Origin: a virus | DNA length: 64,000 bases | IMG/VR virus record: IMGVR_UViG_3300035670_009638 | Span: 1-64,000 of that record | Strand: one strand, 5' to 3' | In this document: one piece after another, positions 4,028 through 58,972 of the stretch | How the letters are laid out: the number at the start of each line of letters is the position of its first letter | Numbering within the stretch: position 1 is the stretch's first letter | The notes under the pieces: model-generated | Seen by the model: the letters and a program-made list of their open reading frames with translations, nothing else | Told to the model about the DNA's origin: nothing | Database searches by the model: none | Translations under genes and position numbers: made by a program

Positions 4028-5725
4028 ATGGTTTCTTCTTATGTACAGGAACATGCTGCTTACCAGTATGCTGTGCAGGTAACAGAGAAGCAAATCATCG
4101 CTGGTAAGTATGTTATAAAAGCATGTCAACAATTTTTAGATGAACTTAATAATCCTGATTCTAAATATTTCATCGATGAAGATGAAATGAAAAAAATTAC
4201 TAACCTAACAAAGTTGATTAACATGGCTACTGGTCTTAAAGCTGGTACTCCAACTCATGATGCTTTAGCTCCTTTCCAGTGGTTCTTCTTGGTTAATGCG
4301 CTTTGTTGGAAACATAAAGACATACCTGAAAAGAGACGATTTGAAAAATCAGTCCTTCTAATTGCTCGTAAATCAGGTAAATCATTCTTAGTTGCATTAA
4401 TTTTCATTATTCTACTTTTAATTGAACCTGAATTCTCAGAGTTCTATTCTGTTGCTCCAGACCGTGAGTTATCTTCTATTGTTAAGAAAGAAGTTGAACA
4501 AGCTATTTCAGCATCCCCTCTTATTCAAAAATATTTCCAAGTTACAAGAGGAGAAATTAGATGCTTGCTAACTAAATCCAAGTTTGTACCATTAGCAAAC
4601 TCTGATAACCGTATGGATGGTCGTAAAGCAAACGTGTTTGTTGCCGATGAAGTTGGTGCATTGAGAAACCGTTATCCAATTGACTCGATGCAATCATCTC
4701 AAATGAACATGGTTAACCGTACTGGTATTTTGATTAGTACTGCTTATGAATCTCTTAATAACCCAATGACCGAAGAAGTTGAATATGCTCAGAAAGTTTT
4801 AGATGGAGTTATTGGAGATGATGCTCTATTTGCTTTGCTTTATAAACCAGACGATCCTAAAGATTGGTTATCTGATAGATCTCTATTAGAAGCCAATCCA
4901 TTAGCAATAGATATACCTGATAACCTTGAATATTTAAAGAAACAAAGAGCAACAGCTTTAGAGTTATCTAGTGCTAAAAAGAACTTCTTGACTAAACATA
5001 TGAACATCTTCGTTGATGGAGATGAAGCTGAAGTTTATATTCCAACTGATGAACTTAAAAAATGTATGATTGAAGATTATGATTGGACAGGTCGAGAAGT
5101 TTATGTTGGTGTCGACTTATCTCAAACTACCGACAATACAGCAATTTCAATGGTAACTTATGATATTGAAAAAGATGAATATGTTGCTCAATCATGGGCT
5201 TTTATCCCAGAAGATAATGCAGCTAATAAAAGTAAAATTGAACGTGTTGATTACTTCACTATGAGAGACAATGGTTATTGTTTCTTCTGTGGAGATAAAG
5301 TTATTAGTTATAGTTTCGTTGAAAATTTTGTTTTAAGTCTTGAAGAAAAGTTCGGTGTGAAAATTAAAGGAATTGGTTATGACCGTTATAACGCTATCTC
5401 TTCTGCCAACAGATGGTATGAAGCTGGTTATGACACAATTGAAATTAGACAGCATTCCTCAGTTCTCCACCCTGCTACAAAGCTTGTAAAAGAGAGAGTC
5501 TTAAAACAAAGCTTCAAATATATTAAAAACCAACTATTAGAAATCAACTTTTCCAATGCTAGAGAAGTTAAAGATACAAATCTCAATACCTATGTAAATA
5601 AGAAAAAATCCATAGGGAAAATAGATATGGTCGTTTCTATCCTAAATGCTATGGTCTTATGGAATAAAGATGTTGAAGAAGGTTTAGTTAGTGTTTATGA
5701 AGAACGAGATATCATCATTATTTAA
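4028..5725 (+). CDS. terL: Terminase large subunit
   Basis: 565 residues, normal length for HK97-type large terminases. The ATPase half has a Walker A variant A-R-K-S-G-K-S (113-119) and Walker B V-F-V-A-D-E (203-208) with its catalytic glutamate. The nuclease half begins with Y-V-G-V-D-L-S-Q-T-T-D (about 359-369), whose first aspartate is a metal ligand of the RNase H-like fold; K-I-D-M-V-V-S near the C-terminus probably gives another. The motor pumps DNA into the prohead through the portal and cuts the concatemer. The ATG follows AAGGTGATGAT shortly after the tRNA. Confidence 0.95.
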   Translation: MVSSYVQEHAAYQYAVQVTEKQIIAGKYVIKACQQFLDELNNPDSKYFIDEDEMKKITNLTKLINMATGLKAGTPTHDALAPFQWFFLVNALCWKHKDIPEKRRFEKSVLLIARKSGKSFLVALIFIILLLIEPEFSEFYSVAPDRELSSIVKKEVEQAISASPLIQKYFQVTRGEIRCLLTKSKFVPLANSDNRMDGRKANVFVADEVGALRNRYPIDSMQSSQMNMVNRTGILISTAYESLNNPMTEEVEYAQKVLDGVIGDDALFALLYKPDDPKDWLSDRSLLEANPLAIDIPDNLEYLKKQRATALELSSAKKNFLTKHMNIFVDGDEAEVYIPTDELKKCMIEDYDWTGREVYVGVDLSQTTDNTAISMVTYDIEKDEYVAQSWAFIPEDNAANKSKIERVDYFTMRDNGYCFFCGDKVISYSFVENFVLSLEEKFGVKIKGIGYDRYNAISSANRWYEAGYDTIEIRQHSSVLHPATKLVKERVLKQSFKYIKNQLLEINFSNAREVKDTNLNTYVNKKKSIGKIDMVVSILNAMVLWNKDVEEGLVSVYEERDIIII

Positions 5726-13927: not shown

Positions 13928-16654
13928 ATGAGCTTAATAGTCAAGATTGGTGCCGATACTAGAAAATTCGATAAAGAAATGAGAAAACTTACTAAGGATA
14001 TTAACCAAGTAAGCAATAAGCTCGGAGATATCGGTAGGACAATGACTACTACTGTTACTGCCCCATTAGCTGGTGTAGGTGTTATTGCGGCTAAGACTGG
14101 TATGGAATTTGAGGCTGGAATGTCTAAGGTTGCAGCGACTTTAGGAACCACAACGGACAAGATTTCTGACCTTGAAGACTTAGCAAAAGAGATGGGTAGT
14201 ACTACTCGATTCTCTGCAACTGAAGCTGCAGAAGGTATTAACTACATGGCAATGGCTGGTTGGAAATCTGAACAAATCATGAAAGGTTTGCCAGCTGTAT
14301 TAAACTTAGCTGCTGCAGGTGGAATGGAACTAGGTGAAGCTTCAGATATCGTAACAGATGCTATGACTGGTATGGGTATTGGTGCTGATGGAGCTGAAGC
14401 ATTCGTTGATTTAATGGCCAAAACAGCTTCCAATGCCAACACTTCTGTACGAGATATGGGTTCCGCAATGATTCTTACTGCTGGTCAAGCCAACTCATTG
14501 GCAATTGAACAAAAAGACTTAGCTCTTGCAATTGGTCTTATGGCGAACGCTGGTTTCAAAGGTGAAATTGCTGGTCAGCATTTATCTTCTGGTATTCGAC
14601 AACTTGTTAACCCTACCAAGAAACAAAAAGAATACATGGAAAAATACGGTATCGCGATGCAAAAGAATGCTGATGGTGGATTAGATCTTGGTGCTACAAT
14701 GGAACACCTTCGTGATAAATTAACTGGTCTTGATAGAGTTACTCAAGCTCAAGTTATGTCTGTATTGCTTGGTGCAGATGCTCAAAAATCATGGTCTGCA
14801 ATTATTAATTCTTCTGAAACAGACTTCAATAACTTAAAAGATGCAATTTCTAACTCCGAGGGCGCAGGTAAACAAATGGCGGAAACAATGGGAAACAACC
14901 TTTCTGGTAGAATTACCGAGATGAAATCTGCTCTAGAAGGCGTCGCAATTCAAATATACGATTATTTGAAACCAGCACTTGAACAAATTGTTTCTTGGAT
15001 AACTAAAGCTGCTCAAGCCTTTGGAAATCTAAGTCCTAAAACTCAAGCATTTATTGTTTCTTTAGCAGCACTTCTTGCATCAGTGGGTCCACTGTTGGTT
15101 GCTTTTTCAACCATCTTAAAAATGATCGGATTTGTTAAAGGTGCATTTACTGCATTAGGTGTAGCATCCATGGGTGCTGTCGGAATATGGGTAGCTGTCG
15201 GTGTAGCTGTTGCTGCATTAGTTATGGCAATTATTTTCTATTGGGATGAAATAGTTGCTGCTACAAAAGCTGCTTGGGAATGGATTAAAGACTTCTTATC
15301 AGCATTATGGGATGGAATAGTTAGTGTTGCAAAAGCAGTTTGGGAACCAATATCCGAATTCTTCTCTGGATTATGGGAAGGTATTAAGTCTGTAACTGAA
15401 ACTGTCTGGAACGGAATCAAAGACTTCTTCTCTGAATGGGGATTAACAATATTAGCAGTAATCACCGGTCCTATTGGCTGGTTAGTAGGACTAATTGTTA
15501 AGTACTGGGATGAAATTAAAGCTGTAACAACCATTGTTTGGGTAGCTATTAAATCATTCTTAGGTTCAATTTGGAATGGAATAGTAGCAATCTTCTCCCC
15601 TATTTTCAACGGAATTGTAACTGTAATTCAAACAGTTTGGAACACTGTAAAGACAGTAACATCAGCAGTATGGAACTTTATTAAGCAATACTTGATTGCT
15701 TTATGGAATGCATTGATGTATTTCGTAAAACCAGTTTTTGATTCTATGATGAACAGCATTAAATCTGCGTGGGAAACTGTTAAAAATGTTTCCTCAAATA
15801 TTTGGAACGGAATTAAGAATTTCTTAAGTTCCATCTGGAACGGAATTAAGTCTGTTGCAACAACTGTATGGAATGCTATTAAATCGTTCTTTACATCTTG
15901 GTTAAATCAGACTAAATCAAATATGAGTTCAGTATGGAACACAATCAAAAGTGTAGTTTCAAATGTTTGGAACTCTATTAAATCCGTTGCTACTACTGTA
16001 TGGAATGCAATTAAAAACGCTGTCATGGGTCCTATCAATACTCTTAAATCAATGGCTACAAATGCATTTAATAGCTTGAAATCTTCAGTTTCTTCAATCT
16101 TCAATTCTATTAAATCGGTTGCCCTATCAATCTGGAATTCTGTTTATTCTTCAGTGACAAGTAAAGTGAATGCTCTTGTTAATGGAGTTAAGGGTGCTTT
16201 CAATGGATTGAAGTCAGCTGTTGTTGGTATTTGGAACGGTATTAAATCAGCTATTAAATCTGTTGTTAACGGAATTATTTCAATGATTAACAAATTCATT
16301 GGAGGATTTAACAAGCCTGCAGAGTTGTTAAACAAGATTCCTGGTGTTAATGCTCCTAAGATTCCGAAGATCCCTATGCTTGCAACTGGTGGTACTATCT
16401 TTGGTTCAGGTGCTGCAATCGTCGGTGAAGCTGGCCCAGAGTTAATCTCTAAATCTGGTTCACAAGTTAAGGTTACTCCTTTATCTGCACAAGAAAAAGC
16501 ACGTGGAATTTCTGGTGCTATTGGTGGTGGAGGTACATCGATTACTATCCAATCACTTGTTGTTCGTGAAGAAGCAGATATTGAGAAGATTGCTAGGGAA
16601 CTTAATAGAGTACAAGAAAGAGCTCAAAGAGCTTCAGGGAGGTTATCATTCTAA
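13928..16654 (+). CDS. Tail tape measure protein
   Basis: 908 residues. Residues about 60-330 form the TP901-type core (A-A-K-T-G-M-E-F-E-A-G-M-S-K-V, M-A-M-A-G-W, L-G-A-D-A-Q-K-S-W). Hydrophobic segments lie around 375-395 and 405-440. From about 440 to 760 the chain is made of repeats with W-N-x-I-K recurring every 11 residues, a known feature of tape measure proteins. It sets tail length (very roughly 0.15 nm per residue in other phages, so about 135 nm), guides tube assembly, and may take part in DNA entry. Its stop overlaps the ATG of the next gene. Confidence 0.94.
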   Translation: MSLIVKIGADTRKFDKEMRKLTKDINQVSNKLGDIGRTMTTTVTAPLAGVGVIAAKTGMEFEAGMSKVAATLGTTTDKISDLEDLAKEMGSTTRFSATEAAEGINYMAMAGWKSEQIMKGLPAVLNLAAAGGMELGEASDIVTDAMTGMGIGADGAEAFVDLMAKTASNANTSVRDMGSAMILTAGQANSLAIEQKDLALAIGLMANAGFKGEIAGQHLSSGIRQLVNPTKKQKEYMEKYGIAMQKNADGGLDLGATMEHLRDKLTGLDRVTQAQVMSVLLGADAQKSWSAIINSSETDFNNLKDAISNSEGAGKQMAETMGNNLSGRITEMKSALEGVAIQIYDYLKPALEQIVSWITKAAQAFGNLSPKTQAFIVSLAALLASVGPLLVAFSTILKMIGFVKGAFTALGVASMGAVGIWVAVGVAVAALVMAIIFYWDEIVAATKAAWEWIKDFLSALWDGIVSVAKAVWEPISEFFSGLWEGIKSVTETVWNGIKDFFSEWGLTILAVITGPIGWLVGLIVKYWDEIKAVTTIVWVAIKSFLGSIWNGIVAIFSPIFNGIVTVIQTVWNTVKTVTSAVWNFIKQYLIALWNALMYFVKPVFDSMMNSIKSAWETVKNVSSNIWNGIKNFLSSIWNGIKSVATTVWNAIKSFFTSWLNQTKSNMSSVWNTIKSVVSNVWNSIKSVATTVWNAIKNAVMGPINTLKSMATNAFNSLKSSVSSIFNSIKSVALSIWNSVYSSVTSKVNALVNGVKGAFNGLKSAVVGIWNGIKSAIKSVVNGIISMINKFIGGFNKPAELLNKIPGVNAPKIPKIPMLATGGTIFGSGAAIVGEAGPELISKSGSQVKVTPLSAQEKARGISGAIGGGGTSITIQSLVVREEADIEKIARELNRVQERAQRASGRLSF

Positions 16655-52789: not shown

Positions 52790-52814
52790 AAAAAAAATAG
52801 AGCACTAGGCTCTA
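52790..52814 (-). terminator. Intrinsic terminator after the GIY-YIG gene
   Basis: Minus sense TAGAGC-CTAGT-GCTCTA, then TTTTTTTT. The stop codon of the upstream gene lies in the loop, and the dnaE promoter begins just beyond. Confidence 0.88.
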
Positions 52815-53596
52815 TAAGAAAACAATTTTCCTTTAAATGGTTTATCATTTGTGGCACTAAACTTAATACCTTGATGACCAATACCAGTCGCCTCAACTGC
52901 GTGCTTAACAGATGGAAATTCATCTATAACTTCTTTTGTGACTGGGTCTAATAATTGAACTACCTTTCTTCTTGGTGAAGGCTTTCCGAACATTCCATTT
53001 CCTTTCCCAGAATTCACTTTTGAAATTCGTTCTTTGGCTTCTTCAGAATGGTTCTTACCAAGGAATGCTAGTTTAGTTTTAGCTCTAGCTTCATCTGATA
53101 ATTTTCTTCCAGTAAGTTTTCTTCTCATCTTTTCTTTTGCTGCTGGAGGCATCGGAACTCCTTTGTTTGCTGGTTGAACCCCAATACGAGCCTTACTCAT
53201 CTTTAACCTTGACTGTTTAGAATGAGTCTTACCAAACATTGGAGCGTTCTCTCCTACTCTTATTTCTCTCATTACTTTAGCAAGCTTTTCTCTTGTTTCT
53301 TCTGTGTGATGGTAACCAGTAATCCCTTCTCCACCATCAGTCATATTCGAAAGTTTAAATCCAAATTCATCTTTATATACAGCAATATAGTAAACTTCGT
53401 ATTCAAGAGCTTCTTCCTCAGTAAGACCTTCATGAAGAATAACAACAGCAACATTCTCGAATCCAAGTTTCTTAATTATATTGTTGAAGTACCTGTTTCT
53501 GCAAGGATAGTATGCTCTTCCTCCCTGACCTTTACCAACATAGAAAGGTTCGTTTGTATCTAATCTAATCCATTCATAAACATAAAAATCATTCAT
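52805..53596 (-). CDS. GIY-YIG homing endonuclease with NUMOD3 and NUMOD1 modules
   Basis: 263 residues, apparently intact. GIY core: F-Y-V-Y-E-W (4-9) and P-F-Y-V-G-K-G (17-23) with a following arginine; E-Y-E-V-Y-Y-I-A-V-Y likely holds the catalytic glutamate. From about 95 to 200 come NUMOD3 repeats (G-R-K-L-S-D-E-A-R-A-K, G-K-N-H-S-E-E-A-K-E-R), and the end (V-V-Q-L-L-D-P-V-T-K-E-V-I-D-E-F-P-S-V) is an IENR1/NUMOD1 helix. It would cut an allele lacking the insertion and spread by repair. It sits upstream of dnaE, with its own promoter and terminator. Confidence 0.9.
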   Translation of the reverse strand: MNDFYVYEWIRLDTNEPFYVGKGQGGRAYYPCRNRYFNNIIKKLGFENVAVVILHEGLTEEEALEYEVYYIAVYKDEFGFKLSNMTDGGEGITGYHHTEETREKLAKVMREIRVGENAPMFGKTHSKQSRLKMSKARIGVQPANKGVPMPPAAKEKMRRKLTGRKLSDEARAKTKLAFLGKNHSEEAKERISKVNSGKGNGMFGKPSPRRKVVQLLDPVTKEVIDEFPSVKHAVEATGIGHQGIKFSATNDKPFKGKLFSYRA

Positions 53597-55289: not shown

Positions 55290-55889
55290 TTAAAACCAAA
55301 TTGTTGTTTTATCTAGGCTAAATCTTTCGCTGTAGTAAGGCTCCTCTGACTTCTTGCCAATTGGAATAAACATGATGGGAACTAGATTTTCTGGAACATC
55401 AAATGAACCTTCAAATTGTTCTCTGTCAAATCCACCAATAATTCCAGTGTTGTAGCCTTTAGATTCGGCTGCATAAACTAATGTCATTGCTGCCAACGGA
55501 GCATTAACAAAAGCATGTTCTAAAGCATCATAGTAATCTTCATAAGCTTTTTCTACTTGTTTCTTTAATTTCGCCTTAACAAAATCATTCATATAACCTT
55601 TTTCGACCAAAGGATTATAAACTTCGTCAAAATTTAGATCAGCATCAATGTCCGCAAGAACTGCCACAACAGCACTAGAATTAATAATTTGATTTTGATA
55701 GTAGGCAATTGGTAGAAGTTGTTCTTTTGATTCTTTACTTTCAAAAACAAAGAACTTCCAATGTTGTAGGTTCCAAGCCGAAGGAGACTTACCTGATAAA
55801 GTTAAAATCTCCTCCAGATCCTCCCTAGGAATCTTAAAATTTGGGTCGAATGAAGTTGTGTTTTTACGATTCAAAATTATCTCTTTCAT
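55290..55889 (-). CDS. Nitroreductase-family protein
   Basis: 199 residues. R-K-N-T-T-S-F-D near the start, the S-P-S-A-W-N-L-Q-H-W-K-F motif (about 35-46) for FMN binding, and G-Y-N-T-G-I-I-G-G-F near 144-153 define the nitroreductase fold. Members reduce nitro or quinone compounds with NAD(P)H; some use the flavin for other chemistry. No obvious need in a phage is known to me. Start codon overlaps the RNase H stop (ATGA). It is co-transcribed with RNase H and the kinase fusion. Confidence 0.86.
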   Translation of the reverse strand: MKEIILNRKNTTSFDPNFKIPREDLEEILTLSGKSPSAWNLQHWKFFVFESKESKEQLLPIAYYQNQIINSSAVVAVLADIDADLNFDEVYNPLVEKGYMNDFVKAKLKKQVEKAYEDYYDALEHAFVNAPLAAMTLVYAAESKGYNTGIIGGFDREQFEGSFDVPENLVPIMFIPIGKKSEEPYYSERFSLDKTTIWF

Positions 55890-56338
55890 ATCATCTCATC
55901 CATTGCTTTATTTGCTAATTCATCTGCTCTCTCATTTCCAGGTTCACCGGAATGGCCTTTGACTTTAGTGAATTGGATAAATGCAAACTTATTAATCAAA
56001 TCAATAAGTTCAATCCACAATTCTCTGTTTTCAACTGGAGTTTTAGCTGATGTAACCCATCCATTATTCATCCATTTGACATACCATTTTTGGTTGATGC
56101 AATTACATACATAAGCTGAATCAGTTCGTACTTCAACAGGGATATTAAACTTTTTCATAGCTCTGAGGCCTTCAATAGCAGCTTTTAATTCCATTTGATT
56201 ATTAGTTACATTTCTAAAACCTTGATACAATTCTTTGGTGTGTTCTCCGTATTGAAGAACAACACCATAACCTCCAATTGAATTAGTTTTACTATTACCT
56301 CTCGAACCGCCATCAACGTAAATTACAACTCTACTCAT
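55886..56338 (-). CDS. rnhA: Ribonuclease HI
   Basis: 150 residues, normal length. Catalytic carboxylates: D9 (V-D-G-G-S-R-G-N), E50 (Q-M-E-L), D73 (R-T-D-S-A-Y-V) and D139 (R-A-D-E-L-A-N), with the K-G-H-S loop histidine H129. It degrades RNA in RNA-DNA hybrids, removing primers made by the phage primase. Its start overlaps the stop of the GIY-YIG/kinase gene (TAATG), preceded by AAGGAGGAATTCTTTA. Confidence 0.95.
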   Translation of the reverse strand: MSRVVIYVDGGSRGNSKTNSIGGYGVVLQYGEHTKELYQGFRNVTNNQMELKAAIEGLRAMKKFNIPVEVRTDSAYVCNCINQKWYVKWMNNGWVTSAKTPVENRELWIELIDLINKFAFIQFTKVKGHSGEPGNERADELANKAMDEMI

Positions 56339-57366
56339 TAAAGAATTCCTCCTTCAATAAGTTCTTTAACAATTTCTGAAACGTGTTTCTCGGTTGTATC
56401 AATTTTGATTTTGTTTTTATATGCAGAATTATCAAAGTAAAATTCCATAACTGCTTTATGATAATCAAAATCTAGTATTTCATGGTTTGTTTCAATACAT
56501 CTTCTTTCTAATTCTTCTGTCGAGCAATCAATATAAATTGCTAAAACACAATCTGATTTTGCAAGTTGGATTTCCATTTCCTTATAAGTTTCTTTTAGAT
56601 CGTCGCTTTTTTCAAAAATATCACAATATGCTTGGAAAGATTCGGGTCCTCTATCCATTGTCATATGTTTATATTTTGTTTGTTTATCAATTTCATTGAT
56701 TAATGTATCTTTACCAGCTCGATCTACAGCAGAAATAACAATTATTTTTGGAGAAGACTCAAGAATATATTCCATTCTAATTCCTTCCAAATGTTTATAT
56801 TTTGAATAAGGAGTTTTATAAGGTTCTCCAGTTCTTAATAGTTCTTTTACTTTTCCTGAACTTAGTCCAAAATTTTCTTTAAAGTATTTGTAAGCTTCTC
56901 CAACAAAATTAAAGAAAATTTGTTTCCCATCAGGCATTATAAGTTTGCATTTCCTTCTTGATGGAGAGGGTTTGCCATACATTCCATTGTTTTTTCCTAA
57001 AACTCTTTCTTTCTGTTCATCTGACCATTTATTTCCGTAATTTGGATTATCTTGTCCCTTATACATTTCAGAGAATTCAATTCTTGTTTTCTCTGAAATT
57101 CTTTCTCCTTCTTTTTTATTAAATCTGGCTTCACCTAAATTATGGTATCTTTTTGTAAGTATTTCTTCGTATTTAAAAGCTATCATCTTATCATCAAATT
57201 CTTTTACAATTTCAATATCAACACTTTCTTTAAGGTAAGGTCGTTGGTGCCAATCGCCATATGCTCTACCACCAGAACCTTTACCAACATAAAGAACTTC
57301 TCCAGTTTCTTTATCTTTGTGGATATAAACATAATGTTTAGTAGTAATTGAGATTTGTTTAGTCAT
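56338..57366 (-). CDS. GIY-YIG endonuclease fused to a nucleotide kinase
   Basis: 342 residues in one frame. Residues 10-80 are GIY-YIG (H-Y-V-Y-I-H; V-L-Y-V-G-K-G; glutamate in F-K-Y-E-E-I-L). Residues about 100-195 have NUMOD3-like G-K-N-N-G-M-Y-G-K-P and a NUMOD1-like helix. From about 206 a P-loop kinase follows: I-I-V-I-S-A-V-D-R-A-G-K-D-T with Walker A at 212-221, M-D-R-G-P-E-S and a lid E-L-E-R-R-C, resembling thymidylate or other dNMP kinases. M198 has AAGGA six bases before it, so the kinase (145 aa) may also be made alone. It looks like a homing gene that landed at the kinase start. N16-type promoter upstream. Confidence 0.85.
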   Translation of the reverse strand: MTKQISITTKHYVYIHKDKETGEVLYVGKGSGGRAYGDWHQRPYLKESVDIEIVKEFDDKMIAFKYEEILTKRYHNLGEARFNKKEGERISEKTRIEFSEMYKGQDNPNYGNKWSDEQKERVLGKNNGMYGKPSPSRRKCKLIMPDGKQIFFNFVGEAYKYFKENFGLSSGKVKELLRTGEPYKTPYSKYKHLEGIRMEYILESSPKIIVISAVDRAGKDTLINEIDKQTKYKHMTMDRGPESFQAYCDIFEKSDDLKETYKEMEIQLAKSDCVLAIYIDCSTEELERRCIETNHEILDFDYHKAVMEFYFDNSAYKNKIKIDTTEKHVSEIVKELIEGGIL

Positions 57367-57405
57367 AACTCTTATAACCTCCGATTTATTTATTTCTCAT
57401 AACTT

Positions 57406-57433
57406 TTATATCTGTTATGACTGAAACGTAAAT
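57406..57433 (-). promoter_or_regulatory. N16-type phage promoter flanked by CATAAC/GTTATG
   Basis: Minus sense TTTACGTTTC...ACAGATATAAAA. CATAAC before and GTTATGAC inside the spacer form an inverted repeat across the -10, matching the words around the RacA-like gene; regulation by that protein is possible. Confidence 0.7.
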
Positions 57434-57564
57434 CGAATAGGTTAATAAAATTTCAATTTTATAATAAAAAATGAGCTCAGTTTTCATCAAACTCACTACG
57501 TTAAGACTATTAAGTTGGTTTATATGTAATAAAATTTGGGCATGATATAATATATCCTAAATAG

Positions 57565-57594
57565 CAAAAAATAAAGCAGAGACAAACTCTGCTT
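57565..57594 (-). terminator. Intrinsic terminator after the glycosyltransferase gene
   Basis: Minus sense AAGCAGAG-TTTGT-CTCTGCTT, then TATTTTTTGC. Confidence 0.88.
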
Positions 57595-58972
57595 ATATAA
57601 CTTCTCTAATTGCTTTACCAGATTTACCAGTAAAAATAGATATTTTATTTTCTTCAATAGCTCCAGGAACCATAGGAATTAAATTGCCTTCTTCATACAG
57701 CTCCACAAACTTTTCTGCTTTTGAAATAGATTTTGTAAGATACTCAACAAGTTCAAAATCGCTTTCGAACTTATAAGGATCTTTTGTAATGTTGAATAGT
57801 TGGGACATAAGCTTAGGTAGAACAACAGAATTATCATATTCATTCATTAATACATTGAATGCTGTGTCTCGATATAACTGTTGTAACTCTGGATTTTCAG
57901 CAACTCGTTTCATTTCTTGAATCGCATCATGAGGATTATCTTCATCCATATAAATAGCAAAATTCGGAATATCGATATATCTTACTTCATCTACAGTTTT
58001 ACATTCTTCTGCCCATTCTTTGTCTACAACTAAAATAGCTCCCGCACAAATGGCTTCTTGCATTGTATATTCTAATCGATCACCATAGAAGGACTTATCA
58101 ATTCCTGTTTTGAACTTGAAAAGAGTACAAGCGAATAAGCTTTGATTAAATTTGTTCAGGACTTCTTCTCGTTCAATTCTTCCGTATGTTGGAACAATAG
58201 GATTTTCATTCTTAGGAAGAGTAGGCTGCAATAAATTATCGCAGTTTGGATGACTTAGGATTTGTTGCTTACAACCAATTCCTGTGTCCATTCCATAAAT
58301 AACCGGCTGTATTCCAGCTTCGTAAACTGCCTCTGAAATATCTAAAAGTCGTCTTGGACCCTTATACAATACAAATCTACCAATATAGGTTAGATTGTTT
58401 TCACGTTTAGAATTCTTATAGAAGTGCTGAAATCTTTTTACGTCAGTCCATAAATGCATTGGGAAAGCTCTGTCTCTTTTAGATGGAAGTTTCTTCACTA
58501 AAGAATTCATATAGTAACTTTCCGAAGAATGGTTATAAACCGCATCAGACTCGTTTATATAAGACCAACAGAATGGAGTTTCTTTTATTGCTTTGACAAA
58601 AGATGTATGTTGCATTTGAACTTTAACTGGAGTAATTTTTTTATACATCTTATGAAACTCAAGAACATCTTCTTTTTTAAGGCCACTATGAGGTTTCGCT
58701 GGGTTGATCAGAATTACTAAATCATACTTTTCGTTGATTTCATTAGTAATTTCATCGATATTCTCTCTTGAGAAAATTGTGTGTTCATGGATATATCCAT
58801 CTTTATATTCTGGCTTTTTCCTTTTCCATGGAGCATGGTAGTAGTAAGTATGGAATTCTACATCATTTTTTAATCCCCAACGAAACATTTCCTCGACTGA
58901 GGTTGATTCACCATCAATCAGCCGAGGGTAACCACGAAGTATAGCGACTTTTTTACCAGAATAATTGTTCAT
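57593..58972 (-). CDS. Glycosyltransferase (GT-B, GT4-like)
   Basis: 459 residues. The N-terminal half is a Rossmann-like domain (V-A-I-L-R-G-Y-P; L-V-I-L-I-N-P-A-K-P-H). The C-terminal half shows L-T-Y-I-G-R-F-V-L-Y-K-G-P-R-R-L-L-D, the nucleotide-sugar binding entry of GT4 enzymes, and E-Y-T-M-Q-E-A-I-C-A-G-A-I, in the place of the E-x7-E motif. It could glucosylate phage DNA, a virion protein or a host surface polymer; no base-modifying partner is certain here. The ATG used follows GGAGGAATTAAAT; an earlier ATG lies on the ribosome site itself. Confidence 0.82.
   Translation of the reverse strand: MNNYSGKKVAILRGYPRLIDGESTSVEEMFRWGLKNDVEFHTYYYHAPWKRKKPEYKDGYIHEHTIFSRENIDEITNEINEKYDLVILINPAKPHSGLKKEDVLEFHKMYKKITPVKVQMQHTSFVKAIKETPFCWSYINESDAVYNHSSESYYMNSLVKKLPSKRDRAFPMHLWTDVKRFQHFYKNSKRENNLTYIGRFVLYKGPRRLLDISEAVYEAGIQPVIYGMDTGIGCKQQILSHPNCDNLLQPTLPKNENPIVPTYGRIEREEVLNKFNQSLFACTLFKFKTGIDKSFYGDRLEYTMQEAICAGAILVVDKEWAEECKTVDEVRYIDIPNFAIYMDEDNPHDAIQEMKRVAENPELQQLYRDTAFNVLMNEYDNSVVLPKLMSQLFNITKDPYKFESDFELVEYLTKSISKAEKFVELYEEGNLIPMVPGAIEENKISIFTGKSGKAIREVI

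Follow-up and report, generated by a model that had tools for sequence, protein, structure and literature searches.

A putative homing endonuclease cassette lies in frame within a phage kinase gene and ends in a translational restart signal for the kinase

Sequence comparison of a thermophile phage and its relatives places a homing endonuclease gene (HEG) inside a P-loop kinase gene, as a cassette between kinase codons 8 and 9. The cassette is in frame, begins without a start codon, ends without a stop codon and closes with a ribosome-binding site and ATG at which translation of the kinase could begin again. We read it as a splicing-free homing cassette with a built-in translational restart, and give this reading, in which cleavage and homing are themselves predicted, a probability of about three in four.

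The 64,000-nucleotide stretch analysed here (the window) comes from a virus record that measures 82.5 kb and has Geobacillus phage GR1 as a relative; the hosts of the virus are heat-loving bacteria. Over 14 kb around the gene, 86% aligns to GR1 with an identity of 87%. A single ORF of 342 codons with no internal stops occupies 57366-56338 on the minus strand of the window, and its 342-aa product is homing-endonuclease-like over residues 1-200 and a P-loop kinase over the final 138-145, so that the original prediction of a stop-free, in-frame fusion of a GIY-YIG endonuclease to a kinase holds. The known alleles comprise two fused records, the window and contig L005, and three free ones, namely GR1 and the mutually identical L019 and L020, which were found by profile search as identical stretches in contigs from two metagenomes (IMG/VR). 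All five records have one kinase gene each, and the cassette is missing from L019 and L020. Since the fused ORF recurs, together with its internal start, in the independent contig L005 (79% amino acid identity), it is not a sequencing error, and the presence of the same fusion in that contig likewise ruled out an assembly error as its source.

At the same locus GR1, whose flanking genes share 88-96% of their amino acids with those of the window, has a free 145-codon kinase, preceded by a glycosyltransferase gene and followed by RNase HI. The first codons are MTKQISTAAPKFIIL in the GR1 kinase and MTKQISITTKHYVYI in the fusion, and the N-terminal residues read MTKQISTA in the GR1 free kinase, MTKEISTT in the L019 free kinase and MTKQISIT in the fusion. 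As the leader and first codons of the fusion match those of the GR1 free kinase, the fusion start is the kinase's own start. Codons 1-8 of the kinase (57343..57366, minus strand), which form the same start in GR1 and L019, have thus become the translation start of the endonuclease, preceded by the GGAGG ribosome-binding site of the kinase leader (57382-57378, minus strand).

The exact junction was located by comparing L005 with L019, in line with the comparison to free-kinase phages proposed in the original prediction. Upstream the two are 99.3% identical, with 20 differences over 3,012 bp, and this identity stops at kinase codon 8 (...TCA ACT ACT), from where L005 has 588 bp (196 codons) extra; after the cassette both resume with TCC CCT AAA (S-P-K). 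The inserted cassette therefore spans 56755..57342 of the window (minus strand; residues 9-204), and its site and 588-bp length are equal in the window and L005. The HEG had been thought to be attached to the 5' end of the kinase gene, which was wrong, as it is inserted within the gene after codon 8, the gene being uninterrupted in GR1 and L019/L020. These same free kinases mean that the two domains are not always fused among relatives; constant fusion had been named as the outcome that would speak against a mobile insert. Beyond the junction the kinase bodies of L005 and L019 differ strongly, with identity returning in the last ~13 codons and staying mostly at 90-99.5% for ~1 kb downstream of the kinase. 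Upstream, four of the 20 differences lie within the final 30 bp before the junction, a clustering of the kind expected if a short upstream stretch had been exchanged along with the cassette. At about 600 to 1,200 bp beyond the kinase, from the nitroreductase gene onward, identity between L005 and L019 falls; the nitroreductases share 93.5% of their amino acids and the neighbouring proteins 99%, which suggests a further recombination tract. The interval that separates the glycosyltransferase gene from the kinase gene contains a 103-aa ORF of unknown function in GR1 (L001 7547-7858) and, in the window, a terminator-like stretch instead.

The leader of the gene is 92% identical between the window and GR1 over 131 bp. 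This leader, which the fused and free alleles have in common, contains in the window a CATAAC-N10-GTTATG element (57398..57419, minus strand). The original prediction had taken this element as flanking a promoter that serves both proteins. While the CATAAC/GTTATG pair is indeed present at 57419-57398, its palindromic form is not conserved (ATTATG in GR1, ATGAC in L005/L019) and sigma-70-type sites did not exceed the chance level. On the coding strand of the insert no promoter-like site was found. Similar AT-rich leaders recur upstream of several genes, including that of DNA polymerase III alpha (window ~57350-57450; L001 11305-11400 and 15191-15291), and possibly represent a dispersed family of early promoters that is not of the plain sigma-70 type.

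The nuclease domain of the cassette, at about residues 11-90 (57097..57336, minus strand), was recognised from alignments with five other phage GIY-YIG proteins, with which it shares motif residues Y12/Y14, Y26-V-G28, R34, E67 and N83; the GIY half of the motif reads as a 'YVY' variant. Pfam PF01541 (GIY-YIG) gave no match on this protein, and the best database match of the N-terminal part is an annotated homing endonuclease of a Proteus phage. An AF2 model of the whole fusion had low overall confidence (62.7), so only its better-scored parts were used. In these the nuclease domain (11-76) adopts a b-b-(a)-b-a topology with moderate confidence, and an IENR1-like DNA-binding domain follows at residues 138-201 (56764..56955, minus strand; pLDDT ~84). 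Between them lies a NUMOD3 motif (residues 89-120; 57007..57102, minus strand), which scores 17.3 bits against PF07460 in the window, under the cut-off of 20.4, and 26.7 bits in L005. The top Foldseek match, for the IENR1-like domain, is I-HmuI (1u3e), at a weak E of 5.7e-3; a restriction enzyme specific for 5hmC ranks below it among the fold matches, as do nucleotide kinases. The C-terminal stretch of the domain resembles a protein of Staphylococcus phage PT1-1. A search of phages with the IENR1 part only returned weak matches, and a PDB sequence search yielded nothing useful for the nuclease half or the kinase half. From its motifs and modelled folds the N-terminal part is thus a complete GIY-YIG HEG with a NUMOD3 and an IENR1-like domain, and is predicted to cleave DNA. 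The suggestion that it might be a DNA-binding remnant is opposed by this completeness, by the retained motif residues and by purifying selection.

A second HEG is present in the window at 52805-53596 (minus strand). It encodes a free-standing GIY-YIG protein of 263 aa (TIGR01453, 82 bits; three NUMOD3 motifs) and lies just upstream of the gene for DNA polymerase III alpha (PHP), where GR1 has only a short annotated hypothetical ORF. Further GIY-YIG/NUMOD-like proteins are encoded in the L005 record (G001:C1:534-1097 and 4234-4350) and in GR1 (14970-15311), and judging by these matches the phage group seems rich in HEGs.

The internal restart (56773..56788, minus strand) consists of GGAAGGA (56788-56782), six nucleotides and the ATG of M198 (56775-56773), in agreement with the earlier statement that AAGGA stands at a good spacing before M198. 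Its anti-SD pairing is predicted at -9.1 kcal/mol, against -10.2 for the GR1 kinase's own start, and falls in the range of true GR1 starts. The 108 internal ATGs of GR1 genes that served as controls were all weaker, which ruled out a chance internal start. L005 keeps the position of the start with a weaker SD of -6.6, a value reached by 2.8% of controls. A local hairpin could tie up the SD of the window copy by base pairing, but its stability does not exceed that of shuffled sequences. The next in-frame ATG of the insert, M61, has a weak SD, and the 5' part of the insert holds no start. M198 belongs to the closing beta-strand of the IENR1-like domain (residues 197-200, AF2). The restart codon is therefore part of the HEG's terminal sequence, and a new RBS-ATG is provided for the kinase by the last seven cassette codons (M198-S204), which begin in this strand. 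A kinase made from M198 would have 145 aa, as the free kinases do, and we infer that two products, the 342-aa fusion and the 145-aa kinase, are made from the one gene. Of the strategy first proposed, the HEG-kinase fusion with a restart signal that lets the kinase survive has stood, but attachment at the 5' end as the means has not.

The C-terminal part matches PHROG 761 (E=9.5e-10) and scores far under the cut-offs of TIGR00041 and PF02223. Its model aligns well, by TM-score, with B. subtilis YorR and with Aquifex thymidylate kinase, so that on modelling the part appears to be a dNMP-kinase-like P-loop kinase, with a predicted function like that of thymidylate/dNMP kinases. ThyX, dUTPase and deoxyribosyltransferase are encoded in the neighbourhood. 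In the L005 kinase model, which is confident (pLDDT 88.9), the first residues from M198 have low confidence and lie outside the kinase fold; swapping these N-terminal residues should therefore not harm the core. The distantly related L016 is also a free kinase. The kinase scan found no relatives in bacterial genomes, and 43 bacterial loci returned by a short DNA pattern were discarded as chance matches, none of which encodes a relative.

The kinase body of the fused allele (residues 205-342; 56338..56754, minus strand) is diverged from that of the free allele. Amino acid identity is 76.6% within the fused pair (window, L005) and 73.5% within the free pair (GR1, L019), as against 55-56% between fused and free, whereas the flanking proteins pair L005 with L019 (93-99.5%) and the window with GR1 (88-95%). 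The kinase tree ((window,L005),(GR1,L019)) thus conflicts with the flank tree ((window,GR1),(L005,L019)), and in AU tests the flank topology was rejected on the kinase data (p 4e-5), as was the kinase topology on data from two flanking genes (p 3e-4 and 2e-3). GC3 in the window is 0.16 for the insert and 0.15 for the fused kinase body, compared with 0.23-0.27 for the neighbours. Between the window and L005, dS is 0.91 for the insert, 1.02 for the fused kinase and 0.8-1.07 for the flanks. Since the insert dS is about that of the flanks, the fused allele has the same age as the lineages of the window and L005, and a recent jump between them was rejected. Both the nuclease and kinase domains are under purifying selection, with omega at 0.118 (0.063-0.194) for the insert between the window and L005. 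The one recent event seen is a swap of alleles in the near-identical background of L005 and L019, which ordinary recombination could produce too. The picture that these comparisons suggest is one of two old alleles, with and without the HEG, replacing each other in near-identical backgrounds.

Under the homing reading, the cassette would rely on the kinase leader for its transcription, and its translation would begin at the RBS and first eight codons that belong to the kinase. As the cassette has no stop, the product from M1 is the 342-aa nuclease-kinase fusion, and the RBS and ATG of M198 would give a 145-aa kinase with an intact core. In a co-infection the free kinase allele would be cleaved by the nuclease close to the junction at codon 8, and repair from the fused allele would copy in the cassette together with the linked, diverged kinase body, the latter because homology is poor there. 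The converted allele would no longer be cleavable. Phage HEGs are known to co-convert the sequences that flank them (PMC2988022). With L005 and L019 as a natural pair that defines the junction to single-base precision, cleavage can be tested directly in a small phage gene, as can inheritance and dual translation.

Ordinary phage recombination might instead be swapping two old, balanced alleles with no active homing, the nuclease being a passenger or kept for another reason. The agreement of the dS values of insert and fused kinase with those of the flanks makes the fused allele equally old and suits this explanation, as do swap boundaries that sit where homology returns, as in any recombination. 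Long purifying selection on the nuclease domain (omega 0.12) with its motif residues kept, however, demands a reason, and the left boundary falls at the insertion site, or ~30-120 bp from it if the clustered upstream differences are counted; we consider balanced alleles without homing unlikely. The same selection, acting on both domains, could instead reflect a domesticated bifunctional enzyme, in which the fusion itself was selected, for instance to combine DNA breakdown with nucleotide recycling, and two lineages lack an inter-domain stop that would be easily gained. Against such an enzyme speak the NUMOD3/IENR1 architecture typical of homing nucleases, the presence or absence of the insert among near-identical phages, and a strong, conserved internal start that restores the free kinase, and we regard it as improbable.

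The data are compatible with either direction of change, both alleles being old, and the free allele could be the derived one if GR1 and L019 had lost the cassette from a fused ancestor. That history is very improbable given a kinase core that is complete without the insert, a free kinase in the distant relative L016 and an HEG that has no start of its own; for the last swap alone, it may hold. Removal of the insert after transcription or translation, as an intron or intein, is scarcely credible, even though the HEG interrupts the gene in frame as inteins do, because the insert carries its own restart codon and all 196 of its codons are used by the HEG. Rfam gave no match at E<=5 in 55800-57900, which with the entirely coding insert excluded a group I intron HEG, and Pfam detected no intein (Hint) splicing domain, which with the full assignment of codons excluded an intein.

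The usual explanation for homing genes within protein genes is either splicing, as in introns and inteins, or division of the host protein. If the homing reading is true, the host gene survives through translational restart and not splicing, and the locus would illustrate another way to be harmless: entry just before the folded core, use of the host start and a new start encoded at the exit. The WHO elements of yeasts (PMC7282813) are alike in linking a homing gene, without splicing, to a diverged piece of host gene that gives resistance, in host-gene trees that conflict with flank trees and in alleles that are near-identical outside and diverged inside. WHO elements, however, lie downstream of FBA1, have their own transcription, replace the 3' end and are intein-derived, whereas the phage cassette is of the GIY-YIG kind, lies inside the gene near its 5' end, in frame, depends on the host start and provides a restart. 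Thus the phage locus has the diverged, linked host-gene piece and conflicting phylogeny of WHO elements, and has neither a location outside the host gene nor independent transcription.

Some mobile ORFs of fungal mitochondria (Allomyces/Glomus atp6, atp9, cox2 and nad3; PMC3630166) are similarly in phase with the host gene and carry a foreign piece of it, and in LAGLIDADG-rps3 fusions (PMC12308204, PMC7902536) an endonuclease ORF is fused to a host gene. Both replace or extend the C-terminal side, in contrast to the phage cassette, which replaces the N-terminal leader and has a bacterial RBS-ATG restart. mobE in nrdA of Aeromonas phage Aeh1 and mobA in T4 gene 39/60 (PMC2988022, PMC3014915) are likewise HEGs inside phage genes of nucleotide or DNA metabolism whose function is kept, but each is a gene of its own that divides the host protein into two subunits, whereas the cassette lacks start and stop and leaves the kinase core undivided. 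Free-standing GIY-YIG HEGs, such as the T4 seg genes and that at 52805-53596 of the window, share the combination of nuclease and NUMOD3/IENR1-type DNA-binding parts, but are separate genes with their own start and stop, where the cassette uses the kinase's start and has no stop before the kinase. In the open-access literature we found no description of a start-less and stop-less in-frame phage HEG that restarts its host gene. We lean, somewhat, towards a further class of homing gene beside the intron, intein and free-standing kinds, namely a start-less, stop-less in-frame cassette that would borrow the host start, provide a terminal RBS-ATG restart and travel with a cleavage-proof body of the host gene.
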